Below, piece after piece: positions 5,211 through 64,000 of a stretch of DNA of 64,000 nt. The stretch covers positions 124,001-188,000 of the forward strand of contig CAJXVS010000005.1 of NCBI GenBank assembly GCA_913061265.1. Reading direction: 5' to 3'. The notes beneath the pieces are model-generated. The model worked only from the letters and a program-made list of their open reading frames with translations, made no database searches and was not told where the DNA came from. Numbering within the stretch: position 1 is the first letter of the stretch; each line of letters starts with the position of its first letter. This DNA comes from an uncultured Halobacteriovorax sp. GTDB taxonomy: Bacteria > Bdellovibrionota > Bacteriovoracia > Bacteriovoracales > Bacteriovoracaceae. Made by a program: the position numbers and the translations under genes.

Positions 5211-8192
5211 TTAAAGAGTGTTTTCCTTATGAGCTATTAGAATACGCTCTATAACAGCATCTTTGCTCATACTAGTTAAAACACCTGGGTCAACAATATT
5301 TTTAAGAACTTCTGGAAGGACTTGAACATCTTCACTAAGCCTTAGATTCTTGTTGGCGCTAACCTCATCTACTTTCTTTATAGGAGTAAAATGTGGAGTG
5401 CTAAGAAGAACTTCTGGGTTCTCATTCACTATAGTATGGATAGCTTTTAAGACATCTAAGAATGAGTCTAGTTCTTTTTTATCAAAGGATTCAGTCGGTT
5501 CAACCATCATCCCAAGTATCTCAGGGAAGGCCACAGTTGGGGCGTGAAGACCAAAGTCTAAAAAGAGCTTTCCAATCCTAGCAATGGATTGGGCCTTAGG
5601 AGTTCCTGATGCTTCAATCTTGGCAAAGGTCTCTGGTTTAATGGTTAAGATAAACTCATGCATGCGAGGAACGGATTCGGTTCCAACAGGAAGAGTAGGG
5701 TAGAGGTCTTTAATATTTTCATAAAGATACTTTGCCGCCAGAACGGCAACGGCAGACATCTTTCTTGTTCCTTCACTGCCAAGGGCCTTTAAGTAAGTAT
5801 AGCATCTGACTTTATGAGCGAAGTTTCCATAATGGCGATGAAAAGAACCAATAGATTTCTCCATACGTTTTGTTTTAAAGACGCCGTCTTCTTTTAAAAC
5901 TTGAATCCCAGGTAGATAAGGAATTAGTTTTTCGCTAACAGCTACAATAGCATCTCCTGGTCCACCGCCTCCGTGAGGTATGGTCCAAGTCTTGTGAAGA
6001 TTATTGTGAACAGCGTCTACTCCAAGAGCTCCAAGATCAACCCAACTTGCGATGGCGTTCATATTAGCTCCGTCCATATAGACAAGACCGTCAACTGAAT
6101 GGATTAGATCGGCCATGTCTTTGAAGCGCTCTTCAAAGATTCCACTAGTATTAGGGTTGGTCACCATGATGCCAGCGATTCGCGTATTATACTCTTTAAC
6201 TAAGTTTTCAAGTTCAGGGAAATTGATCTGACCCCTTTCATCAGCACCAATAGTCACAATACCTACTTGAACTCCATCAATCTTCTTTGATTCAAATCCT
6301 GCCATAGTAGCAGTGGCGGGGTTAGTACCATGGGCACTTTTAGGAATAAGGATGATGTTCTTAGTCTCTCCGTTCCCATTATCTCTGTGGTAGGCCTGAA
6401 ATAACTTAAGACCGACAAGCTCACCTTGGGCGCCAGCAACTGGTTCTGTAGTAAGCCCTGGAAGACCGGTAATGGTCTTAAAAATCTCTTGAGTTTCATA
6501 GAGAATCTCAAGAGAGCCTTGAGCGAACTCATCAGGGCATTCAGGGTGGAGATCAGTTATGCCAGGAAGTCCTGCAGCGTAGTCGTTGATATAAGGATTG
6601 TACTTCATCGTGCAAGAACCTAATGGATAAATATTATCATCAGGGCTTACGTTTTGTTGTCCTAGCTCATCATAAAAACGAGTTAGTTCTTGGTAATTGA
6701 AATTAGGCAGGCCTACAACCCCTTCTCTTAGAAGATCCTTTTTAATAGGAGAGACTTCTATTTTGTCTTTACTTGGACCATAAGTCTTTTCAAAGACTGC
6801 CACTAATTTTTTAAGATCATCATCTGTTTGAAGATCAGTTACAGTTACTAAGAGATGATCTTCTTCTATAAAAGCTCCAGGAATAATATTAGCGGCAAGA
6901 GCCTCTTTGTTTAGTTCATCAGTCTTTGTAAGCTTTAAACAAAATGAATTATAAAATGAAGTTGAATAGGCAAGTTCAACTCCTTCAAAACCTAAGAGAG
7001 TAGAAGCTAGTTCAAAAGCACTTGTTTGTCCCTTAAGGGTAGCCTCTTTCATCCCTGCTTCCCCGCGGGCCAAGATGGCCGCACCAGCAAGAGTGGCTAA
7101 GAAAGATTGATTAGAACAAATATTGCTCGTGGCCTTCTCTCTTCTTATATGTTGCTCTCTAGTAGAGAGAACCATAGCGAGGGCCTCTTTGCCTTCACTA
7201 TCTTTTGCTTTACCAACATAGCGACCAGCTGTTTGCCTGATGGAGAGCTTATCATTTTCATTGTATCTGATGCCAAAGATTCCAAGACCTGGGCCTCCGT
7301 AGTTAGGACCAATGGCCATGCCTTGTCCTTCACCAACGATCATCGTGCAGCCTGTGTCTCCCCAATCACTTGGAGGAACAAGACCCCCTGTGCTTAGGAG
7401 CATAGGATCGATAACACCAATAGAGAGGAGCTTATTCTCTACGCAGTACCTTGTCAGTTCGTGAACTTCTTCTAAGGTTCCATTATTATTTTTTTGCATA
7501 AAGATAAGTGCCGCAATGTCATCATTGGCCTCGGTTAATCTCTTTAATGCGTCTTGATCTAGAAGACCTGTTTTCTTATTAAGAGGAACTTCAATAAAGT
7601 TTAAGGCCGTCTCTTTAGCTAAAGTTTCAAGAACTTCTTTATCGCCTTTATAAAGTCCTTTTGTAACGAGAACTGTTTTCTTTGTTTTCTTAATCCTAAG
7701 TGCCGTGTTGGCCGCTTCGTAAAGACAAGTTGATCTTTCATAAAAACTTGCATTGATCGCTTCAAAGCCGGTCAGCTTTGAGAGGGCACTTGCGTAGAGC
7801 CAAAGTGTTTGTAGAGTTCCTTGGCTTCTCTCAGGTTGATATGGAGTATAGGCCGTCGTAAGACCTCTGATATCTGAAACATAGCCAACAAGATCTGGAA
7901 CTTTATAAGTTTCAAGTCCGGCACCTAAAAAATGAGGGGTGATCTTATTCTTTGCTGCTACTTCTTCAACGTGAACAATAAGGTCTTCGTAACTTAGGTG
8001 TGGACCAAAGTCTGGTGTCTTATCAAAGAGCACATCTTTATTAATATGGGTAAAGAGATCATCAAGGCTTTTAGCACCAATGTTCTGGAGCATTTCATCG
8101 ATCTCTTGATCAGAGGCGCTTATATAAAAGGGCTTAAGTTCACGTTCTAGTTCTTTAGGATTATAAGGTAGGCGTTCAAAAGGGTGACCCAT
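5211..8192 (-). CDS. gcvP: Glycine dehydrogenase (decarboxylating), P protein of glycine cleavage
   Basis: A 993-residue fused P protein: the N-terminal half resembles the GcvPA subunit (YTPYQPERSQG near residue 120) and the C-terminal half resembles GcvPB. The pyridoxal-phosphate lysine lies in HKTW, followed by IPHGGGGPG, near residue 733. The enzyme decarboxylates glycine and passes the aminomethyl group to lipoyl-GcvH. Length is slightly above the usual 950 or so. gcvT and gcvH are not next to it, so the system is split in this genome. It is transcribed divergently from rsmJ with only 77 bases between the starts. I see no room for a glycine riboswitch in that gap. Confidence 0.96.
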   Translation of the reverse strand: MGHPFERLPYNPKELERELKPFYISASDQEIDEMLQNIGAKSLDDLFTHINKDVLFDKTPDFGPHLSYEDLIVHVEEVAAKNKITPHFLGAGLETYKVPDLVGYVSDIRGLTTAYTPYQPERSQGTLQTLWLYASALSKLTGFEAINASFYERSTCLYEAANTALRIKKTKKTVLVTKGLYKGDKEVLETLAKETALNFIEVPLNKKTGLLDQDALKRLTEANDDIAALIFMQKNNNGTLEEVHELTRYCVENKLLSIGVIDPMLLSTGGLVPPSDWGDTGCTMIVGEGQGMAIGPNYGGPGLGIFGIRYNENDKLSIRQTAGRYVGKAKDSEGKEALAMVLSTREQHIRREKATSNICSNQSFLATLAGAAILARGEAGMKEATLKGQTSAFELASTLLGFEGVELAYSTSFYNSFCLKLTKTDELNKEALAANIIPGAFIEEDHLLVTVTDLQTDDDLKKLVAVFEKTYGPSKDKIEVSPIKKDLLREGVVGLPNFNYQELTRFYDELGQQNVSPDDNIYPLGSCTMKYNPYINDYAAGLPGITDLHPECPDEFAQGSLEILYETQEIFKTITGLPGLTTEPVAGAQGELVGLKLFQAYHRDNGNGETKNIILIPKSAHGTNPATATMAGFESKKIDGVQVGIVTIGADERGQINFPELENLVKEYNTRIAGIMVTNPNTSGIFEERFKDMADLIHSVDGLVYMDGANMNAIASWVDLGALGVDAVHNNLHKTWTIPHGGGGPGDAIVAVSEKLIPYLPGIQVLKEDGVFKTKRMEKSIGSFHRHYGNFAHKVRCYTYLKALGSEGTRKMSAVAVLAAKYLYENIKDLYPTLPVGTESVPRMHEFILTIKPETFAKIEASGTPKAQSIARIGKLFLDFGLHAPTVAFPEILGMMVEPTESFDKKELDSFLDVLKAIHTIVNENPEVLLSTPHFTPIKKVDEVSANKNLRLSEDVQVLPEVLKNIVDPGVLTSMSKDAVIERILIAHKENTL

Positions 8193-53304: not shown

Positions 53305-54981
53305 ATGTGTGGTATTTTAGCAGTTTTTGGGGCGAGTCAAGTTGAGCCAACTTTAGAGAAGGCGCTTAAGGCTTCAAAGAAGATCTCCCATAGAGGACCA
53401 GATGAAAGTGGTCATATAGTAACAGCTTCTGGGGCCATCCTCTGTCATGAGAGGCTTTCTATTGTTGATCTAAAAACCGGGAAGCAGCCCATTAAAAGTG
53501 AAGATGAAAGCTACCTGGTTCATAACGGTGAGATCTATAATCATAAAGAACTGAGGGCCTCGCTTAGCCGAGAATATAAAAGGCAAGGCCTCTCTGATAG
53601 TGAGGTCATTCTTCATGGCTATCTAGATAAAGGCGTAAGCATCGTAAAAGAACTTGATGGCGTCTTCTCTTTTATCATCTCACATAAAGATAAAGTTCTA
53701 GTCGCTAGAGACCCTATTGGTGTTAAGCCGCTCTTTTTTGGCTCAGATCCTGAAGGCGCTCTATGGTTCGCTAGTGAAGCAAAGTCCCTTGAAGATATTT
53801 GTGAAACAGTAGAGAGTTTTCCTGTTGGACATTATTATACTAAAGAAGAAGGCTTCGTTCGCTACTTCGCCCCTAAGTGGTGGACTGGAGAAGAGAAGCC
53901 TATAAGAGATGCCTCTAAGATTAGAGAGCTTTTAACAAAGGCCTGCACTAAGAGGCTTATGAGTGATGTTCCTGTGGGAGTTCTTCTCTCAGGTGGACTT
54001 GATTCTTCACTTGTCTCTTCTATCGTGGCACGTGAGTTAAAAAAAGAAGGCCGAACCGTTAAGAGTTTTTCAATTGGATTAAATAAAGACAGTAAAGATT
54101 TAGTAAAAGCCAGAGAAGTGGCAGAGTTTCTAGGAACTGAACATCATGAGATAACCTATACCGTTGAAGAAGGCATCGCTTATATGAGGGAGCTTATCGA
54201 AAAGGTTGAGACTTATGATGTAACGACGATTAGGGCCAGTACCCCTATGTACATAATGACAAAGTATATAAGAGAGCAAGGCGTAAAGGTTGTCCTCTCT
54301 GGTGAAGGAGCGGATGAAATGTTTGGTGGTTACCTCTATTTTGGTAACGCCCCAACAAGTTCTGAGTTTCACGATGAGACAGTAAGAAGAGTTAAAAGAC
54401 TTCATACTTCTGACGTTCAAAGAGCTGACCGCTCCACAATGGGGGCAGGCGTTGAGGCCAGAGTACCTTTCTTAGACCTAGAATTCCTAGATGAAGTCAT
54501 GAGCCTAGATCCAGAGCTAAAAGTCATTAAGGCCGGCGAGAAGATGGAGAAGCATGTTCTTCGTAAGGCCTTTGATACGCCAGAGGATCCTTATCTTCCA
54601 GATTCAATCCTTTGGAGGCAAAAAGAACAATTCTCTGATGGAGTTGGTTATTCTTGGGTTGATTCATTAAAAGAGTTTGCTGAAGAATGTGTCACCGATA
54701 TTGAATTTGCGAAGCGTGAAAAACTTTTTCCACACAATACTCCTTTAACAAAAGAAGCTTTTCTTTATAGAAAGGTTTACGCTTCTATCTTCAAAAATAA
54801 GTCTATGGTGAAGCTTGTGAAAAGATGGATCCCACGCTGGCAAGATTATGATATTGATCCGTCTGGGCGAGCTAACGCCGCTCATACTCAGACCTATCAT
54901 GGTGAAGGGGTAGCAAGTAAAAAAGCTGAAAGAGATGAAATGGAGGCCCTTGAAGGGGACCTCCTTGAGGTTGCATTATAA
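53305..54981 (+). CDS. asnB: Asparagine synthase (glutamine-hydrolysing)
   Basis: 558 residues, close to E. coli AsnB (554). MCGI at the N-terminus exposes the Cys nucleophile of the glutaminase domain (RHRGPDE, RLSIVD and HNGEIYNH blocks). The C-terminal synthetase domain has the PP-loop SGGLDSS near residue 230 and the GEGADE block. It makes asparagine from aspartate, glutamine and ATP. Some AsnB relatives sit in natural-product clusters as amidotransferases; its closeness to the lipid-type cluster invites that thought, but the sequence looks like the ordinary enzyme. A terminator separates them. Confidence 0.94.
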   Translation: MCGILAVFGASQVEPTLEKALKASKKISHRGPDESGHIVTASGAILCHERLSIVDLKTGKQPIKSEDESYLVHNGEIYNHKELRASLSREYKRQGLSDSEVILHGYLDKGVSIVKELDGVFSFIISHKDKVLVARDPIGVKPLFFGSDPEGALWFASEAKSLEDICETVESFPVGHYYTKEEGFVRYFAPKWWTGEEKPIRDASKIRELLTKACTKRLMSDVPVGVLLSGGLDSSLVSSIVARELKKEGRTVKSFSIGLNKDSKDLVKAREVAEFLGTEHHEITYTVEEGIAYMRELIEKVETYDVTTIRASTPMYIMTKYIREQGVKVVLSGEGADEMFGGYLYFGNAPTSSEFHDETVRRVKRLHTSDVQRADRSTMGAGVEARVPFLDLEFLDEVMSLDPELKVIKAGEKMEKHVLRKAFDTPEDPYLPDSILWRQKEQFSDGVGYSWVDSLKEFAEECVTDIEFAKREKLFPHNTPLTKEAFLYRKVYASIFKNKSMVKLVKRWIPRWQDYDIDPSGRANAAHTQTYHGEGVASKKAERDEMEALEGDLLEVAL

Positions 54982-54990
54982 TTATTGTTA

Positions 54991-55017
54991 GGGAGGCGCC
55001 TATGCCTCCCTTTTTTT
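54991..55017 (+). terminator. Intrinsic terminator of asnB
   Basis: GGGAGGC pairs with GCCTCCC across a 6-base loop, followed by seven T. It lies 10 bases past the stop and abuts the convergent gene. Confidence 0.88.
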
Positions 55018-57694
55018 ATAAGATCTCTATAATTCCTGTCTCGCCATTCATTCTAATCTTCATCCCTGTCTCTAATCTTTTGGTTAGGCCTTTGATAGAA
55101 ACAATTGTGGGAAGACCCATTTCTCGCGCCACGATTGCAGAGTGAGAAAGAAGACCGCCACGTTCAACTAAGAGTGCCTTAGCTGAAGGGTAGAGAGGAA
55201 TCCAGCCCGGATCAGTTCTTTTAGTAACGAGAATCTCGCCATTAAGAACCATATCATCGTTAGGATCAAGAATAACTTTTACGATGCCTTCAATATCTCC
55301 AGGGCAACAAGGGATACCACGCATCTGATTTTCTGCTAGTTCAATATCTTCAAGAACATGCTCTTCAACTGGAAAGTGTTGATTTTGCCAATAACAAGGG
55401 CCTCTCGTATAAAACCTTGGGGCCGGCTCTTCTCCTTCTCCGTAAGCGTCGTATTGTTTGCGCCTTTCGTTGATAATGGATTTTAAGTCTTGAGTCGTTA
55501 GAGTTCCATCCATTGAACCTTTAAGTTCTTCTAGGTTTAAATAAAAGATGTCTTCTTTAGCATCAATGATCTTCCTTGCTGTAAAGTCTCGTCCAATGCC
55601 ATAGAACATTGATCTTACAATTCCATAAACCCTTGTACGGCAAAACCTTGTGTTCTCTCTATTCATAACGGCTTTTCTGGCATGCTTTAAAGACCAGCTA
55701 TAGATCAGTTTTCTAAAACCACTAATATTTTGATTAAGAAGGGCCTCAGCCTTTTCTTTGATTTCTTTTTCTCGTTTTTCAAAGACTTCAAGATCCGTTT
55801 GACCGGCGTTGATAAGATTCTTTAAAAAGACAAAGAGAAGAGAAGGGTCTTGATGAAGATCTTTTTGCTCTAATTTCATCTCACTCATGCAGCGAAAGCC
55901 AAAGAGGTCGATATATTCTTTAACCTCGTTATAAAAGTCTTGGTATTCGCTTTGATTAAGGCTCTCGAGACAGTCCGCGTTTGGAGTCTCAAGAATGATC
56001 TTCTTAAGGCCTTCAATCTTTGAGACCTTACCTGACATAATGATAAGCCTCTTGGTAGGTTCTGCTGATTCAAGATTTCCATTCCCGGCCAAAAGGTCGT
56101 TATGAAAAGATTCTCCTAAGTGGTGGAGCCATTTCTCAGTCAATTTCTTGAAAATTCCATAGTGAACCATGGTTAAAAAATCATTTATAATAGGAGCATG
56201 CCATTTCCATAGCATTTGTTTTTCCATTTCTTGATAATGCTCATAGATTTCATCTGCTGGCATATGGTCAAAGTTTAATTTTCTAAATTCATTGTACTTT
56301 TTATAAAAATAGGCCAGAAAATCATCGACCACAGTTTGAATCCTGTAGTGAAAGTAGAGAAACTTAAAGCCTACAATGAATCTTCTTAAGGTAGCGCCAA
56401 AAGTATGATGAAAGCTCGGCGGCTTTACCCTTTCAGCGATCTCATCTTGAAGCGCTTCATCTGTTCCCATCATAGTTTCCATAAAGCCTCTGTTATATTT
56501 ATAGCCCGGAAGGATAGAGGTTAATTTATACCAATTGAGAAGGTTGTAATAAACTCTTCCATAAAAGAGTCCTAACATGTCTTTAAGAAAATGATCCATT
56601 TGTCTAATCTGTTTAGCGGGAACCAGAAGGATCTCACAAAACTGAACATAGACTTGATGATAGACATAGTGAGCGAAACCAAAGGTTAGTGGCATTGTGA
56701 TGCCGCCATAAGACTCTACAATATTTGAGTTATCCCAAACAAAGAGCCTGCCTTTGCCTGACTTAACTTCTGTTGTGACTGGTCTTGATTGAAGCAGGTA
56801 GAGTTCACCGTCAGCGATGGCCCATTCAACGTCTTGAGGAAAGCGGTAGAGGTCCTCTATTGTTTCACTAAGGTTAGCTAATTCTGTTAGTTCACTTTCG
56901 CTTAGTGAACTAACGTTTACTAAGCTAGCTTCAACATCGACTTCTTTTGGTTCTTGTTTTTCTATATCTTGAACCAACATCTTTGGCTTATCAGTTATTT
57001 CTTGTTCAATTACTTTCTTTGTCTCTTTACTGAGCTTGTAGTTGTCTGCATCAAAGAGACCAGAGACCAGTCCTTCACCAACGCCGTAGACGGAGTTGAT
57101 TAAAAGATGTTCAGGATCTTCATTAATAGGATCACAAGTAAAGAGGACTCCAGATTTATCAGGACAGATCATCTCTTGTAAGACGACAGCGACCTTAATG
57201 TCATTAGCTGATAGCTTATTCTCAGATCTATAGACTAGGCCTCTCTCACTATAAGCACTGGCCCAGCATTTCTTAACAGACTCTAAAACATTCTCAACTG
57301 ATTGAACGTAGAGGTAAGAAGATAATTGCCCCGCAAAAGAATGAGAACTTCCATCCTCATCTAAGGCGCTTGATCTAACGGAGATTAAATCTCGGCTTAG
57401 ATCTTTAAAAGATTTAGAGATAAACTCTTCAACCGCTTTTGGTAGGGGAGTCTTTAGGATTAATTCCTCTATGGCAGCTGCCATCTCTTTAGCGGTCCTG
57501 TCTGACTCCTCTATGTTCTTAAACTCTTCTTCAATGCCGGAGAGGCTTTTAAAGTTATCAAAGGTATCAGAACCTAGAACAACCCATTTAGGGACCTTAA
57601 GGCCCGCCTTGGTCATGACATAGAGGTTAAAGCCTTTGCCTCCAGCATTTCTAGAGGCGTAGTTTCTTTCAGAGTTTTCACTAATTAAAAGCAT
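55016..57694 (-). CDS. PEP-synthase-like phosphotransferase lacking the PEP barrel (rifampicin-phosphotransferase-like layout)
   Basis: 892 residues. The N-terminal 320 form the ATP-grasp domain of PEP synthase/PPDK (GGKGFNL, VRSSA, DGSSHSFAG, VLQEMI, WAIADGELYLLQSRPV). The C-terminal 130 form the swivelling phosphohistidine domain: GGLLSHSAIVARE with His851 and GLPTIV. The middle, about 430 residues, is not the PEP-binding TIM barrel, and nothing follows the His domain. This is the layout of rifampicin phosphotransferases, which pass a phosphate from ATP through the histidine to a hydroxyl of a small molecule. Last gene of a five-gene operon, 2 bases after UbiA. Substrate unknown. Confidence 0.85.
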   Translation of the reverse strand: MLLISENSERNYASRNAGGKGFNLYVMTKAGLKVPKWVVLGSDTFDNFKSLSGIEEEFKNIEESDRTAKEMAAAIEELILKTPLPKAVEEFISKSFKDLSRDLISVRSSALDEDGSSHSFAGQLSSYLYVQSVENVLESVKKCWASAYSERGLVYRSENKLSANDIKVAVVLQEMICPDKSGVLFTCDPINEDPEHLLINSVYGVGEGLVSGLFDADNYKLSKETKKVIEQEITDKPKMLVQDIEKQEPKEVDVEASLVNVSSLSESELTELANLSETIEDLYRFPQDVEWAIADGELYLLQSRPVTTEVKSGKGRLFVWDNSNIVESYGGITMPLTFGFAHYVYHQVYVQFCEILLVPAKQIRQMDHFLKDMLGLFYGRVYYNLLNWYKLTSILPGYKYNRGFMETMMGTDEALQDEIAERVKPPSFHHTFGATLRRFIVGFKFLYFHYRIQTVVDDFLAYFYKKYNEFRKLNFDHMPADEIYEHYQEMEKQMLWKWHAPIINDFLTMVHYGIFKKLTEKWLHHLGESFHNDLLAGNGNLESAEPTKRLIIMSGKVSKIEGLKKIILETPNADCLESLNQSEYQDFYNEVKEYIDLFGFRCMSEMKLEQKDLHQDPSLLFVFLKNLINAGQTDLEVFEKREKEIKEKAEALLNQNISGFRKLIYSWSLKHARKAVMNRENTRFCRTRVYGIVRSMFYGIGRDFTARKIIDAKEDIFYLNLEELKGSMDGTLTTQDLKSIINERRKQYDAYGEGEEPAPRFYTRGPCYWQNQHFPVEEHVLEDIELAENQMRGIPCCPGDIEGIVKVILDPNDDMVLNGEILVTKRTDPGWIPLYPSAKALLVERGGLLSHSAIVAREMGLPTIVSIKGLTKRLETGMKIRMNGETGIIEIL

Positions 57695-57696
57695 AA

Positions 57697-58629
57697 TTAA
57701 TTCCAGTAGAACTTGCGAAGGACGTAGTTAGCGATCACTCCAGCGTAGATAATAACAATATAAACTTCACTAAATTTTCTAAAGAGGTTTCCTGTTAGGG
57801 GCTTTTTGCCAATCAGGTAGGTGGTACTTACGAGGAGTAAAATCCCGATGGCAACAGCTTGATAGGCCTGCATAAAAAAGAAATCAATCGTCGAGATCAA
57901 TAAACTCAAGATACCCACTCCAATGGCGTGAACTAGAATAAGGACTGTCGCGCCAAATTTTCCCCAGATACTTGAATAAGTATCAACGCCTTCTCTTTCT
58001 TCACAAGGCTGATAGATCTTTCTGCCAAGCTCAAAGATGTTAAAGAGAAGCCAGCTCATGATCGCAAAATAATAAAAATCAGGCTCGTGATCCCATGGGT
58101 AATAACGACTAAGGGCCGAGAAGATAGCTATTGATAAGAAGATAGTAACGATTGTATGGCTAGTAGCGTAGGTCGTTAGGTGAGGCCGAATCTTTTCGCC
58201 TATGAAGAACTCTCTATACATAAGAAGTGAATATGAAATTGCGATGAGAATTGCGACGAACCCAGGCATTCCACAAGAGGTGAAGAAAATAATCTCGAGA
58301 ATGATACAATGCTCAATCCCTTTTTTCATATCAAAGTCTTTTAAGAGGCCTCTTGGAAGTGGGCGGGTTGGATTAAAAGTAACGTCGGTCTCATAATCTT
58401 TAATTTCATCATAAAAGCGAAGCTTCATAAAAAAGGCAGCTGTTCCTAAAGTAACCCAGGCTAAATGAATAGGCTCTAAGATGACATACTTACTAGCGTC
58501 AGCGACTAGGTAGTGCGCTCCAAAGAAAAGGGCGATCATAAAGAAGTGGCTTAATGGTTCAAACCTTTCACTAGTAAACATCCACCATTTGGAAAGATGT
58601 TTAAACCTCTCTTTTACATAATTACTCAT
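57697..58629 (-). CDS. UbiA-family membrane prenyltransferase
   Basis: 310 residues with about seven to nine membrane helices. The first Asp-rich metal site is RFYDEIKDYETD followed by NPTRPLPRG, characteristic of a UbiA subgroup in which DEfKD replaces the usual NDxxDxxxD. A second Asp-rich loop near residue 210 (REGVDTYSSIWG) matches the second metal site. These enzymes move an isoprenoid from its pyrophosphate to an acceptor, making quinones, ether lipids or prenyl sugars. It overlaps the ligase upstream by 4 bases and is 2 bases from the phosphotransferase. Acceptor unknown. Confidence 0.83.
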   Translation of the reverse strand: MSNYVKERFKHLSKWWMFTSERFEPLSHFFMIALFFGAHYLVADASKYVILEPIHLAWVTLGTAAFFMKLRFYDEIKDYETDVTFNPTRPLPRGLLKDFDMKKGIEHCIILEIIFFTSCGMPGFVAILIAISYSLLMYREFFIGEKIRPHLTTYATSHTIVTIFLSIAIFSALSRYYPWDHEPDFYYFAIMSWLLFNIFELGRKIYQPCEEREGVDTYSSIWGKFGATVLILVHAIGVGILSLLISTIDFFFMQAYQAVAIGILLLVSTTYLIGKKPLTGNLFRKFSEVYIVIIYAGVIANYVLRKFYWN

Positions 58630-60422
58630 GAGTTCTCCTGAAGCTTTTCGCGGAGCACTTGGTATTCAACCTTGCTTTGGTGTCTAGCATCTAGGGGAAT
58701 TGAGTCAGTTAAAAGAATCTTATCGCAAGTGACAGAGTTCTTCTCCATGACTCTTTTTATCTCTGTGATCCATTCAGCTTCATCTCCACTGGCCCCTTCT
58801 CTTTTAGTAAAGACAGCATAGGTCTTCTCACCAAGGTCAGCATCAGGCATACCGAGGTAGGCGGCGTATTCAACGAAGGGAAGCTTCTTCATGATAACTT
58901 CTGCCCTTACAGGAAAGAAGTAACTCCCGCCTCTATTGATAGCGTTATGAATCCTTCCCATGAACCATAGATCGCCGTGTTCATCAACTCGGCCGATATC
59001 TCCTGTCCGGTGCCAAACGATTCCTTCATGATCTTTAATCTTTGATTTTTTAAAGGCTTCAGCATTATTATAATAATTCTGGCAAACATGCTCACCGCTA
59101 ACGATGATCTCTCCAGGTTTGCCTTCTTCTACTTCAAGATTCTTCCAATCTGTATCTGAGTCAACGGTAAGGGGGCCCTTGTTTATTTTTAAGTATTTTA
59201 CTTTCAGTCCAGAATCAAAGCGGCCTACATTAACCCCTTCGTCTTCCCACTCGGGATCAGGATTGTTCTTTCTCGCAATCATGTCTTTAGCTTCAATATG
59301 CGCCATAGGCTCTACTTCTGTTGAGCCATAGAGAACAAGGACTTCAGCATTTGGAGCTATCTCGGTGGTCTTAATAAGGTCGTCTCTAGAGATAGGCGCG
59401 CCGCCGGTGATGATTCTTCTTAGAAAGGGAATCTTTAAATTATTTTCTAAACAGTAAGTATAAACATGCCTAAGAAGGCTAGGGGAAAGAGTCGTCGTGG
59501 TGACTCCAGCAGATTTCATTTGAGCGATAAGAACTAAGGCGTCTTTATCTCCAGATTGCCCTACGTCAATGGCAGGCAAGACTGTAGTCACACCAGCGGC
59601 TAAATTATTTAAAGAGAAAATAGGAAAGACAGGTAGGTCTTGATCGCTACTTTCAAAAGGAAGATGCTTATCGAGAGCGTAGTGCTGAGCTGCTAAAAAG
59701 CGATGAGTTCTGTCGGCGCCCTTAGGGGTTCCAGAGGAGCCCGTGGTAAAAGTAATAAGAGCTGTATGTTCTTTTTCAACAGGTTCAGTTTGAGATCTTA
59801 TAAGCCCTTTCATTAGGGCCTCAATGCTAGCGTCGTATTTCTTTACTGTTTCACCAATAGAGATCTTTAAAGGGATCTTTCCAATCTCTGGAAGGTCTCC
59901 CATATAATCAAAGGCCTTCTCTACTGATATAAAGGCCTTCGCCCCAACTACTTTGGCCGCTACATCCATTTGATCTCGTCTTGCCCAGCCGTCAAGAAAG
60001 GTAGCAATTGCACCAATCTTTTGAAGAGCAAACATAGCGGCGTATAGGTATAAACACATAGGGACAAAGATGATGACTCTGTCGCCTTTTTTTATGCCAA
60101 GCTTCTTAAAGCCGGTGGCGATGACGGCCACTAGATGATCAAGTTCTTTTACTGTTACTGAATCATGGGGAAGAGGGTCGTCTATATTATAGCTCCACTC
60201 TTTTAATTTATCAGGATGAACCCAACTAAGAATAGGACGATCAGGGATGGTTTCTAAGTGCTGAGTTAAAAAGGAGGCTACATTATTTAAAGATGAACTT
60301 CCTTCATGATAACCAAATGACTTGGCCTCGGATAACTTTTGCCCATTGAGTTCAAGAGGAAAACCAGCAGGTCTTTTTGAGATCTTACCAAGTAAGGTTA
60401 TCAACAAGTTTTTGAAACTCAT
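58626..60422 (-). CDS. AMP-forming acyl/aryl ligase, OleC-like
   Basis: 598 residues. The ATP loop FTTGSSGTPKG near residue 228 and the YGSTE block near 370 give the AMP-binding core; HRTGDIGRVDEHGDLWFMGR is the hinge. The FPIFSLNNLAAGVTTVLP stretch resembles the fatty-acyl ligase OleC (beta-lactone synthetase in olefin biosynthesis) and the related PRK09274 group more than classical acyl-CoA ligases. It would activate a carboxylic acid as an adenylate. The start overlaps the hydrolase gene by 38 bases, an unusually long overlap. Substrate and partner are inference. Confidence 0.82.
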   Translation of the reverse strand: MSFKNLLITLLGKISKRPAGFPLELNGQKLSEAKSFGYHEGSSSLNNVASFLTQHLETIPDRPILSWVHPDKLKEWSYNIDDPLPHDSVTVKELDHLVAVIATGFKKLGIKKGDRVIIFVPMCLYLYAAMFALQKIGAIATFLDGWARRDQMDVAAKVVGAKAFISVEKAFDYMGDLPEIGKIPLKISIGETVKKYDASIEALMKGLIRSQTEPVEKEHTALITFTTGSSGTPKGADRTHRFLAAQHYALDKHLPFESSDQDLPVFPIFSLNNLAAGVTTVLPAIDVGQSGDKDALVLIAQMKSAGVTTTTLSPSLLRHVYTYCLENNLKIPFLRRIITGGAPISRDDLIKTTEIAPNAEVLVLYGSTEVEPMAHIEAKDMIARKNNPDPEWEDEGVNVGRFDSGLKVKYLKINKGPLTVDSDTDWKNLEVEEGKPGEIIVSGEHVCQNYYNNAEAFKKSKIKDHEGIVWHRTGDIGRVDEHGDLWFMGRIHNAINRGGSYFFPVRAEVIMKKLPFVEYAAYLGMPDADLGEKTYAVFTKREGASGDEAEWITEIKRVMEKNSVTCDKILLTDSIPLDARHQSKVEYQVLREKLQENS

Positions 60423-61086
60423 CAGTCACTCCTTTTGTATGGGTCCATGGAAGAGCATGTCCTCCTTCTGGGATTATCACTTCAGAGAAATCAATATGAT
60501 TTTTTAGAAGCTTAAACTGATCTCCATCGCCGGAGGTCTTATCAGAGTCCCCGCGAATAACGAGGACTGGGATGGGTAGGTTCTTTAATTCTTTTAAGTT
60601 CTTAACAATGCTTTCAGTAGGGATGTCTTTTTCAAACATAGCAGGCTTTAGAACATTCGGGTTAGTAAAGACTTGTTCATTTGGCTTATAGCTTGTTGGA
60701 ACCTCAGAGGGATAAGATGAATCCACCATCATCTTGGCGATGCTTGAAGGGGCCATCTTTGAAAGAAGTAAGTTTCCAACTATGGGTAAGCTAAGGATTG
60801 TTTTTATAGCAGGGGACATCTTCTTACTGACAAAGAGGTAGGGACTAATAAGAACTACGGCCTTTGTAAGACTTGGGTTCTCAAGAGCGCTCTTTATCGC
60901 TTCGACGCTACCCCAACTATAACCAACGTGGATGACCGCGCCTTCCGGTTGTCTGGTTGGGTTTTGATAGCGATCCAGGCAGATCCACTTTGATGCAGGA
61001 AGGAGTTTTTGAATCTCTTCATAGTCTGCTGGAGTTCCTGGGGATCCATGGTGTCCGATAAAGGTTAATTTCTCTAAGTTAGTCAT
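60385..61086 (-). CDS. Alpha/beta hydrolase
   Basis: 233 residues of alpha/beta hydrolase fold. The oxyanion strand HHGSPG is near residue 12, the nucleophile elbow is GYSWG (Ser57), the acid is in RGDSD (Asp180 or 182) and the base is in GGHAL (His210). The lid region (about 95-150) is hydrophobic, as in lipases and esterases. It overlaps the ligase start by 38 bases and the formyltransferase stop by 4, so translation of the three is coupled. In Ole clusters the hydrolase OleB partners the ligase; here the nucleophile is Ser rather than the OleB Asp, so the chemistry must differ. Confidence 0.85.
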   Translation of the reverse strand: MTNLEKLTFIGHHGSPGTPADYEEIQKLLPASKWICLDRYQNPTRQPEGAVIHVGYSWGSVEAIKSALENPSLTKAVVLISPYLFVSKKMSPAIKTILSLPIVGNLLLSKMAPSSIAKMMVDSSYPSEVPTSYKPNEQVFTNPNVLKPAMFEKDIPTESIVKNLKELKNLPIPVLVIRGDSDKTSGDGDQFKLLKNHIDFSEVIIPEGGHALPWTHTKGVTDEFQKLVDNLTW

Positions 61087-61856
61087 AGAACAAAGCCTTG
61101 GTTTATAAATTCTTTTATTTGTTTCTTAGTAGGGTTCTTAGTGAATACTTTTTTCTCTGCAGTATTGGGCTTACCTTGTGGGAACTTGCCTTCATTTTCT
61201 ATCTCTAGGCAAAGATCATAGAGGGCCTTAGCCTCTAGAGGGGCCGTCTTCTTTAAGTAATTTAAATACGAATACTTGTTTTCATTTTTTATATCTTCTT
61301 TAGAAGCAACAGGGATAACTTTATGAAGTTTTCCTGCATCAATCTTCTCCACCATTTCGTGAATACTGAATCCGGCTTCTCTTCCTTCAGTAAGGGCGTA
61401 GAGGTCGCAAAAGGTCCCTCTATATTCAGGCAATAACCCATGATGAACATTAAGGCAGCCAATCTTAGCTGCAGTAAGAATCTCTTTTTTATAGATGCAT
61501 CTCGTTCGAAGATTAACGATTAGATCTATCTTATTCTTAGAGACATAATCTAAGGCCTCTTCACTATTCATAGAATCCCAAGTTAGAACTGGGATCTTGT
61601 AATTCTTGAAAAGATTTTCACGCCTCTTTAAAGGAAGTTCAATAATATTTCTTATAAGTTGAAGACCAATTTTCTTAGCTCCTAAAAAGGGAAGGCCTAT
61701 ACTCTGAAGAGTTGTTTTAGTGTCAAGGTTATCAAGCAAAACGAGTCCAGAGACCCAACTTGAGTTGAGCTTTAGGAATTCTTCGAAGAGTTCTAAATAG
61801 TTATCTGGCATATAAGTCACGCGGCTGGTGACAAACAAAACCCTAAGATTTGCCAA
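61083..61856 (-). CDS. Stand-alone formyltransferase-like enzyme
   Basis: 257 residues of the GART/FMT catalytic fold. The triad is visible: Asn136 and His138 in NVHHG followed by LLPEYRG, and Asp173 in EKIDAG. It lacks the second domain of methionyl-tRNA formyltransferase. It therefore probably N-formylates (or carbamoylates) a small molecule such as a sugar amine or amino lipid with a folate cofactor. It is the first gene of the operon. Upstream, an inverted repeat (61902-61943) lies between it and the divergent lipid kinase. Confidence 0.8.
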   Translation of the reverse strand: MANLRVLFVTSRVTYMPDNYLELFEEFLKLNSSWVSGLVLLDNLDTKTTLQSIGLPFLGAKKIGLQLIRNIIELPLKRRENLFKNYKIPVLTWDSMNSEEALDYVSKNKIDLIVNLRTRCIYKKEILTAAKIGCLNVHHGLLPEYRGTFCDLYALTEGREAGFSIHEMVEKIDAGKLHKVIPVASKEDIKNENKYSYLNYLKKTAPLEAKALYDLCLEIENEGKFPQGKPNTAEKKVFTKNPTKKQIKEFINQGFVL

Positions 61857-61901
61857 CTTGGGCCCTCCTTGGCCATATTATTCATATTTCAAAGCCTTAA
61901 T

Positions 61902-61943
61902 AATACAGGAAAAATCGTCAAAAATCCCAACAGTCCCTGTATT
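61902..61943. promoter_or_regulatory. Spaced inverted repeat between divergent lipid genes
   Basis: AATACAGG (61902-61909) and CCTGTATT (61936-61943) form a perfect 8-bp inverted repeat, 26 bases apart. It lies between the starts of the formyltransferase operon and the lipid kinase and could be a shared operator. Function not shown. Confidence 0.35.
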
Positions 61944-62025
61944 TTCTACACGGCGCAGCATATAGAGTCGTGGCGAACCTCTCAAAGGGCTACACTTGAG
62001 TATTCAACTTAGAGGAAAATGAAGA

Positions 62026-62997
62026 ATGCAAAACATCAGCGTCTATTTAAACCAGCGAGCAGCAAATACTGATCTAGATTATTGGAAAGGTCGTATTACG
62101 CGTAGTCTCTTTCGTTCAAAGCTGAATTTCCGCACTCCTGATAACTTAGAAGAACTTCACAGGGACCTTAAGGCCGATATAGACGCCAAGGTAGACGCTG
62201 TTGTGAGTGTTGGAGGGGACGGAACTGTTAATACCTTGATTCAAAACTTGGCCAATAAAGACATAGGCCTCTTAGTTATTCCTGGTGGAACAGCTAATGA
62301 CCTAGCTTCAGAGTTAGGTATGAATGAAAATATCAAGAAGATTTGCCAATGCATTCGAAATCAACAAGTTAAGAAAATTGATCTTATACGTATAAATAAT
62401 AGGTTAATGGCAACTAATGGTGGAATTGGTCTTGGTGGTGAAGTCGCTAAAAAAATCAACAGCATAAGACGTAAGTATCCTATCTTTAAAAGCATCATGA
62501 AGGCCTCTGGAAAATCAATCTATAGTTTTTTTGTGGCCCAAGAGCTTTTGAGTGTAAATTTTGAGCAGTATCATTTAGATATTACTTCAAAAGAATTCAC
62601 AGGAAAGATCAAGACTTCATGTATCTTAGTTAATAACCAACCAATGCTTGCGGGTACTTTCAATATTGCGCCAAAAACTAACAACTCAGATGGGAAGTTT
62701 AACGTAAGCATTTTGACTCATGATTCAAGACAAAAACTTATCCAATGTATTCTTCAAATAGCTAAAGGCACCTTACCCATCAACGATCCAAACTTTATCA
62801 GCTTCGAGTCTGAAAAAGTAAATATCAAGAACCTCTCTTCAAATAAGACACCTCAGTTCTTTGGAGATGGCGAAATCTTACATTCAGAGGAGACCGACTC
62901 TTTTGATATTGAAATTGAAAAGGATGCTTTAAAGGTTTATTCCGCTCAAGTCGGGACCGATTTAGTAGACCTAGTCAACGACGTCAGCCTATCTTAG
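62026..62997 (+). CDS. Diacylglycerol-kinase-fold lipid kinase (YegS/DgkB-like)
   Basis: 323 residues. The ATP-binding GGDGTVN (63-69) and IPGGTANDLA near 90 are the DAGK catalytic motifs; the C-terminal beta-sandwich contains the family FGDGE block. Members phosphorylate diacylglycerol, sphingoid bases or related lipids. It lies divergently next to the formyltransferase operon and 9 bases before an SDR/acyl-reductase-like gene, so it very likely acts in the same lipid pathway. The exact lipid cannot be told. Confidence 0.88.
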   Translation: MQNISVYLNQRAANTDLDYWKGRITRSLFRSKLNFRTPDNLEELHRDLKADIDAKVDAVVSVGGDGTVNTLIQNLANKDIGLLVIPGGTANDLASELGMNENIKKICQCIRNQQVKKIDLIRINNRLMATNGGIGLGGEVAKKINSIRRKYPIFKSIMKASGKSIYSFFVAQELLSVNFEQYHLDITSKEFTGKIKTSCILVNNQPMLAGTFNIAPKTNNSDGKFNVSILTHDSRQKLIQCILQIAKGTLPINDPNFISFESEKVNIKNLSSNKTPQFFGDGEILHSEETDSFDIEIEKDALKVYSAQVGTDLVDLVNDVSLS

Positions 62998-63006
62998 AAT
63001 AGAGTC

Positions 63007-64000
63007 ATGAAATTATTTTTAACAGGAGGGACTGGCTTCTTAGGAAGTGAGCTCGTAGAGAGACTGGCCCCCCATTTTGAAAAAATTTATCTTCTTTGCA
63101 GAAAGCCTTCTAAAAGAATGGAGCTCAGGTTTGAGAACTTATCTAATATTGAATTAGTTAAGGGAGATATCTCTGGACCTGATATTGTTGAAGAAGCTGG
63201 TGTTCTAAAGAAAATAAAAGAAGAAGTTGATGTGATCTTTCACGGAGCTGCTTATTACGATATTGAAGGTCCCTATAGCAGTTGTTTTATGTACAACGTT
63301 GTGGGTACTCAGAATATTCTCTACCTTGCTAATCAATGCGAAAATTTAAAACACATTCATTATATAAGCACCATTGCTGTTGCAGGAAATTTCTCTGGAC
63401 TCTTTAGTGAGGATTCTCTTAAAGAAGGTCAAAAGTTTAGCAACCATTATGCCAAAACAAAGTATGATGCTGAGGCCATGGTTAGGGCCTATGAGTTTAA
63501 GGGAACTAAGCATATATACCGTTTAGGCATCCTTGTTGGTGATTCAAAGACGGGCAAGATGCCCAAAGTTGATGGTCCCTATTACTTCTTTAAATTCTTA
63601 AGTAAGGCAAAAGGGAAGTTCAAACATTTAAATAAGCTAAAGTACTTACCTCTGCCTTTTGATGAAAAAGCTGTCATGCCTTTTATCCCTGTAGATGAGG
63701 CCGCAAATATCCTTGAAGAGGCCATGGCCAATCCAAGAGATGGAGAGCTTAATTGTTATCATGTCATAGGGGATTCCCCTCCTAATGTGGCCACTTTTGT
63801 AGAGGATTCTCTAAAAGCTTTTGGGATCGATCTAGCAGTAGTGCCTCTTCCTCATTCACCACTTTATAAGATGATTCTTCCTAAAGTTGGTCTGCCTTCT
63901 GAGCTGCTTCTTTATATGTATGGCAAGTGCCAATACGAAACAAGCCATCTTATAAATGACTTCTCAAAAGTGCCTAGAAAGTCATATCAAAATTATTCAT
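63007..64000 (+). CDS. Extended SDR, acyl-reductase/epimerase-like (3' end outside window)
   Basis: 331 codons are visible from ATG 63007 and no stop occurs before the right edge, so the gene is cut. TGGTGFLG at residues 6-13 binds NAD(P); catalytic residues are Ser/Thr in YISTIAV and YxxxK as YAKTK (near residue 158). The RLGILVGDSKTGKMPKVDGPYY block is typical of thioester or fatty-acyl reductase type SDRs rather than sugar epimerases. With an upstream ligase it could reduce an activated acyl group, or be an OleD-like reductase. Starts 9 bases after the lipid kinase, so cotranscribed. Confidence 0.85.
   Translation, partial: MKLFLTGGTGFLGSELVERLAPHFEKIYLLCRKPSKRMELRFENLSNIELVKGDISGPDIVEEAGVLKKIKEEVDVIFHGAAYYDIEGPYSSCFMYNVVGTQNILYLANQCENLKHIHYISTIAVAGNFSGLFSEDSLKEGQKFSNHYAKTKYDAEAMVRAYEFKGTKHIYRLGILVGDSKTGKMPKVDGPYYFFKFLSKAKGKFKHLNKLKYLPLPFDEKAVMPFIPVDEAANILEEAMANPRDGELNCYHVIGDSPPNVATFVEDSLKAFGIDLAVVPLPHSPLYKMILPKVGLPSELLLYMYGKCQYETSHLINDFSKVPRKSYQNYS

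Follow-up and report, generated by a model that had tools for sequence, protein, structure and literature searches.

A two-operon locus in Halobacteriovorax as a candidate pathway for an N-formylated envelope amino-lipid

What might a bacterium build with a formyltransferase, an acyl ligase, a UbiA-type membrane enzyme, a phosphotransferase, a lipid kinase and a BtaA-like protein encoded side by side? The question is raised by a locus at the end of a 64,000-nucleotide stretch of DNA (the window; positions 124,001 to 188,000 of contig CAJXVS010000005.1, assembly GCA_913061265.1) from an uncultured Halobacteriovorax sp. of the Bdellovibrionota. A preliminary description had placed seven genes there in an uncharacterised lipid-type cluster; open reading frame (ORF) calls and reading of the sequence bear out these genes, their coordinates and their junctions, and the family names hold broadly in Pfam and NCBIfam searches. 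The extent of the cluster had been underestimated, as its plus-strand operon runs on past the window with two further genes. In all the locus has nine genes, arranged as two closely coupled operons that diverge from each other. Seven lie in or at the edge of the window and two beyond it, and these last two, encoding an acyl-thioester reductase and a putative BtaA-like aminocarboxypropyl transferase, are the genes that tell most about the product. This is best read as an envelope amino-lipid derived from S-adenosylmethionine (SAM), N-formylated and made by a dedicated pathway. That the nine genes form one biosynthetic unit for a single membrane-associated amino-lipid is proposed tentatively, as something close to an even prospect.

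The arrangement of the genes is not due to chance, because they recur in the same sequence in more than 25 genomes of this taxonomic order and also in further families of the phylum. The preliminary description had suggested a synteny search seeded with the ligase and UbiA, and had named unlinked genes in close relatives as the outcome that would speak against it; the search found the genes firmly together, both in other Bdellovibrionota and outside the phylum. Of the 129 genomes searched within the order, 37 have an orthologue of UbiA (E <= 1e-36), and around these orthologues the run of formyltransferase (FMT), hydrolase (HYD), ligase (LIG), UbiA and PPDK-like genes is kept together with the divergent DAGK-type kinase, short-chain dehydrogenase/reductase (SDR), acyl-thioester reductase and BtaA-like genes. 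Both the reductase and the BtaA-like gene are present in all 37, and across the 129 genomes their co-occurrence gives a Fisher p of ~1e-25, a value not corrected for kinship. In the phylum as a whole, a profile search of 369 genomes gave a UbiA belonging to this group in 150. The gene set is contiguous in distant families too: two loci there (L086 and L088) carry all of it as a one-direction run, DAGK-SDR-reductase-BtaA-FMT-HYD-LIG-UbiA-PPDK-ABC-FtsX-LolA-like, and two others (L085 and L114) have the same genes, a linkage that joins the two operons to each other and to the export genes; about 16 loci have ABC, FtsX and LolA-like genes close to the cluster. Two variants share the phylum with this form. 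In variant II the ligase is shorter and the UbiA is a different one (the two are fused in five loci); a GNAT-like protein is present, frequently a P450 as well, and the DAGK-SDR-reductase-BtaA set is the same. Variant III has an aminotransferase-reductase fusion. At one locus an HMG-CoA reductase (HMGR) is fused to an APH-type kinase domain (L073:6009-8351), beside UbiA, PPDK, BtaA and ligase genes.

Outside the phylum the UbiA alignment is too divergent to serve as a seed, and the genome scan was seeded with the PPDK alignment, giving at least 80 loci. Those listed come from Rhodobacterales, other Alphaproteobacteria, Gammaproteobacteria (Legionellales, Coxiellaceae), Bacteroidota, Rhodothermota, Verrucomicrobia and Hydrogenedentota, and most have the order HMGR-UbiA-PPDK-BtaA-X439-GNAT-ligase in one direction, with HMGR recognised by PF00368. 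In Alphaproteobacteria, Gammaproteobacteria, Bacteroidota and Rhodothermota a core of UbiA, PPDK, BtaA-like protein and AMP ligase is encoded as a single operon, together with HMG-CoA reductase and the GNAT-like protein. On a Roseinatronobacter plasmid the genes UbiA-PPDK-DUF3419-X439-GNAT-like-ligase follow the apparent end of an HMG-CoA reductase gene. X439, a conserved multi-pass membrane protein of about 439 amino acids (aa) that follows BtaA in loci L118 to L202, has no convincing Pfam or PDB fold match. By its motifs it may be a CTP-dependent lipid kinase, an idea that the Pfam and fold searches did not confirm and that remains a lead. In several Rhodobacterales, among loci L123-L202, the HMGR-UbiA-PPDK-BtaA operon also has next to it, on the other strand, a sulfotransferase-family gene and a P450 (for example L128:6638-7804 and 5391-6638).

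How parts are exchanged between these loci was followed in the 136 listed loci of at least 12 kb with both UbiA and PPDK. The formyltransferase is present in 35 and the GNAT-like protein in 93, eight have neither and none has both; within the phylum the two stand at 35 and 22. Such exclusivity is expected if both proteins act on the same amine. The label "GNAT-like" is our own reading of a protein with no Pfam match and a weak NCBIfam acetyltransferase match (0.0064). In a PPDK tree built by a quick method the formyltransferase type forms a single clade (41 rows, support 100). One GNAT locus (L117) falls within this clade, which places an exchange next to a PPDK of the formyltransferase type. 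The exchange carries the ligase and UbiA types along with it. DAGK and X439 are mutually exclusive too, as are the reductase and HMGR.

The five genes of the minus-strand operon are packed closely, with a 2-base gap between PPDK and UbiA and overlaps of 4 bases (UbiA/ligase), 38 bases (ligase/hydrolase) and 4 bases (hydrolase/formyltransferase). The PPDK/rifampin-phosphotransferase-like gene (55016-57694) encodes an 892-aa protein (PF01326 1.3e-79, PF00391 1.6e-21; NF004881 1085 bits, cut-off 883) with an ATP domain, a family-specific middle domain and a C-terminal phospho-His domain, in which His851 is invariant and the motif DNSNIVESY conserved among 64 relatives. Its closest PDB entry, 5fbs (4.6e-79), is titled phosphoenolpyruvate synthase, and we take it to be rifampin phosphotransferase. 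The Pfam scan gave PPDK_N and PEP-utilizers only, with no C-terminal PEP/pyruvate-binding barrel, and the identity as a phosphoenolpyruvate (PEP) synthase was rejected on this domain make-up. Against the models for rifampin phosphotransferase, PigC and RedH the protein scores 337, 380 and 393 bits, all under the cut-offs of 999, 1300 and 1350. An asparagine synthase B gene (53305-54981) lies convergent with the PPDK gene, and the same convergent neighbour is seen at about ten related loci.

The UbiA-superfamily gene (57697-58629) encodes a protein that matches PRK13592 (9.5e-15) and has no match to PF01040. It has the UbiA fold all the same, judging from an AlphaFold2 model (pLDDT 88.9) whose five best PDB folds are all of UbiA type, led by the digeranylgeranylglyceryl-phosphate (DGGGP) synthase 7bpu; at the profile level it matches the DGGGP synthase entry 6m31 (1.3e-7). 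The first Asp-rich motif, DExKDxxxD, is kept, with D74, E75, K77, D78 and D82 invariant in 67 relatives. The second (DxxxD) is absent, its position being taken by a variant motif, E200xxR203K204 ... E211 ... Y218, of which E200, R203 and K204 are invariant and E211 nearly so, with the fold unaffected.

Upstream lie the genes for the AMP-forming acyl ligase (58626-60422), the alpha/beta hydrolase (60385-61086) and the 10-formyl-THF type formyltransferase (61083-61856, with a TTG start). The ligase (PF00501 3.4e-40) belongs to the wider PRK09274/OleC group, scoring 347.8 bits on PRK09274 against a cut-off of 478, and among nine aligned stand-alone relatives its P-loop and catalytic Lys584 are conserved, as are Ser57, His210 and Asp182 of the hydrolase (PF12146 1.8e-8), which are invariant. 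Hydrolase and ligase form a single ORF of about 800 aa in 31 related loci, in keeping with the 38-base overlap of the two genes here. The formyltransferase (PF00551 3.7e-12) has a catalytic triad, Asn136, His138 and Asp173, that is invariant in 38 relatives.

The two operons are separated by a 169-bp intergenic region (61857-62025). The plus-strand operon begins with the gene for a DAGK-type lipid kinase of the YegS/BmrU group (62026-62997; PF00781 4.1e-19), whose GGDGT motif is conserved in 40 relatives, followed after 9 bases by an SDR gene of the fatty-acyl/thioester reductase type that crosses the window end (63007 to window-equivalent 64038; PF07993 4.6e-41), and whose full 343 aa match PRK07201 (9.3e-55). 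On the contig beyond the window, the acyl-thioester reductase gene of PigE/acyl-ACP-reductase type (window-equivalent 64035-66092, L038:2035-4092) overlaps the SDR gene by 4 bases and the BtaA-like gene (window-equivalent 66080-67189, L038:4080-5189) by 13. Over residues 313-675 the 685-aa reductase resembles the reductase portion of PigE (1.3e-47; PDB match 4ppm) and, more weakly, an acyl-ACP reductase model (2.9e-14); Cys613 is invariant, and the class-III aminotransferase domain of PigE is absent from the protein. A stand-alone paralogue of its N-terminal domain (about 310 aa, 42% identical) is encoded elsewhere in the genome (G000:C5:220886-221803, L204:8887-9843). A prodiginine-type pathway was considered and rejected; the reductase matches on Thioclava and Methylocystis plasmids look like prodigiosin-type clusters without UbiA. 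The 369-aa BtaA-like protein belongs to DUF3419 (PF11899, 1.8e-34), which we take to be the family of BtaA, and the SAM-site residues G42, G44 and D62 are invariant in 44 relatives. In betaine lipid synthesis BtaA transfers the 3-amino-3-carboxypropyl group of SAM (PMC10491745).

Read from the chemistry of their families, these enzymes could be joined into one route. The acyl-thioester reductase and the SDR would take an acyl thioester through the aldehyde to the alcohol, which the DAGK-type kinase would phosphorylate as a lipid alcohol. The BtaA-like enzyme would transfer the SAM 3-amino-3-carboxypropyl group to the lipid, as in betaine lipids, and the formyltransferase would formylate the amine so introduced. 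The PPDK-type enzyme, using ATP by way of the phospho-His, and the membrane-bound UbiA may between them activate an alkyl or prenyl unit and attach it, and the AMP ligase and hydrolase may activate and edit a carboxylic acid that enters the assembly. Where a Lol-type ABC transporter and a LolA-like carrier are encoded next door, as in several relatives, they probably deliver the product to the outer membrane. A bolder version would make the product an envelope lipid of a new class: a homoserine-type ether lipid, N-formylated or, in the GNAT variants, N-acylated, with a chain that UbiA attaches following activation of the PPDK type. Predatory Bdellovibrionota and many marine Alphaproteobacteria would make this lipid and export it to the outer membrane; we regard this version as unlikely.

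Several points weigh against an amino-lipid made by the whole locus. Substrate, product and order of steps are proposed from family chemistry, and the BtaA-like protein is assigned as a SAM:aminocarboxypropyl transferase from Pfam DUF3419, its acceptor being putative. The window's locus lacks the ABC, FtsX and LolA-like export genes, and this genome gave no match to a LolA-like query. A UbiA enzyme requires a diphosphate as its donor, usually an allylic one, and the locus holds no prenyl synthase to supply it. As the ligase and UbiA types swap together with the formyltransferase and GNAT-like protein, what is seen is mostly the exchange of one module, in few independent events, and the exclusivity of DAGK and X439 and of reductase and HMGR follows the phylum boundary, the locus with the HMGR-kinase-like fusion (L073) excepted. 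A product of lipid type, N-formylated and made with an acyl or putative prenyl activation step, much as the preliminary description had envisaged, stays the best guess.

The amino-lipid has to be set against other products and other ways of dividing the genes. The P450 genes of the variant clusters, the match of the reductase to the PigE domain and the PPDK scores against PigC and RedH would suit a secreted or pigment-like small molecule, meroterpenoid or alkaloid-like, in which UbiA prenylates an acyl or amino-acid scaffold and the PPDK-type enzyme serves as a condensing ligase like PigC or RedH in prodiginines. We consider this a serious if somewhat unlikely rival, as those scores fall far under the cut-offs for PigC and RedH, and the same is true for PigE (850), the locus has no aminotransferase domain, carrier protein or ketosynthase, and the DAGK, the BtaA-like protein and, in relatives, the Lol-type export point to a lipid. 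It is unlikely that two unrelated pathways just happen to be neighbours, the plus operon making a betaine or ether-type lipid and the minus operon, from formyltransferase to PPDK, something else. In one genus (g15) the two operons do lie apart in the genome (L053 and L112), but every one of the 37 genomes with the minus-operon UbiA has the plus-operon reductase and BtaA-like gene, other families have co-directional runs, and outside the phylum the BtaA-like gene directly follows PPDK in the same operon.

Two further readings have next to nothing in their favour. An Ole-type olefin or beta-lactone cluster would be suggested by the matches of ligase and SDR to the OleC and OleD models, both under cut-off, and the preliminary description had called the ligase OleC-like, which holds as distant kinship and fails as a claim to a true Ole enzyme. 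The same genome carries a separate and complete oleD-C-B-A run (L203:8344-12807, G000:C9; PRK09258 396 bits, PRK09274 605 bits) that is likely a true olefin/beta-lactone cluster, with 385 bits on the OleD model there and 54 here, and no OleA-type thiolase is present in the nine-gene locus. On the OleC (beta-lactone synthetase) model the window ligase scores 204 bits (cut-offs 850/900); the OleC of the separate run, to which it is 27% identical, likewise stays under cut-off at 484 bits, so the contrast between the two ligases counts for more than the cut-off. The Ole pathway was rejected for this locus on account of the separate run. Just as improbable is a chance gathering of primary-metabolism genes, namely a PEP synthase, a quinone UbiA and a fatty-acid CoA ligase. 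NCBIfam does name the PPDK-like protein "phosphoenolpyruvate synthase", with the model cut-off passed, but the PEP/pyruvate C-terminal domain is missing, UbiA and the ligase, for which clear primary-pathway identities had been raised as a possible objection, score under the cut-offs of primary-pathway models, and synteny extends across families and phyla.

All the protein families of the locus are known, and it is their combination that is undescribed in the open-access papers searched; those on lipids, UbiA, DUF3419 and Bdellovibrionota gave no description of this gene set, in agreement with the earlier statement that no described pathway contains it. A pathway present in this form in 37 of 129 genomes searched in its order, with a core in several phyla, is one to which the open-access literature searched has assigned no product. 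Its study would bear on the way in which the unusual envelopes of predatory bacteria are made. For annotation, the locus places PPDK-type, UbiA and DUF3419 proteins in a shared context, and as a defined set of genes it is open to deletion and lipidomics.

Known systems resemble the locus in parts. The PPDK-like protein has the domain order and catalytic His of rifampin phosphotransferase, PigC and RedH, and differs from them in its own middle domain with the motifs DNSNIVESY and YYNLxNWYK. The archaeal DGGGP synthase, a lipid enzyme that forms an ether bond, is the best profile and fold match to the window UbiA, although identity in the structural match is 18% and the second Asp motif is replaced. 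The ebo operon (EboC, UbiA-297) is likewise a widespread and largely uncharacterised bacterial operon around a UbiA-type enzyme (PMC5133447, PMC9235831), but its EboA-F set was not encountered here, and ebo is without PPDK, BtaA-like protein and AMP ligase. With the Ole pathway (OleABCD) the locus has in common a ligase of the same wider group, an SDR and an alpha/beta hydrolase (in many relatives one protein with the ligase), and is set apart by the missing OleA, the genome's own oleABCD and the distance of the two ligases. From the BtaA/BtaB route to the betaine lipid DGTS it differs in that the neighbours of the BtaA-like gene in L038 include no recognisable BtaB-type N-methyltransferase, the rest of the genome not having been searched, and in having instead UbiA, PPDK, the ligase, the reductases and the formyltransferase, whose place a GNAT-like protein takes in variants; the DUF3419/BtaA-like protein is common to both, and so, probably, is a SAM-derived aminocarboxypropyl head group.

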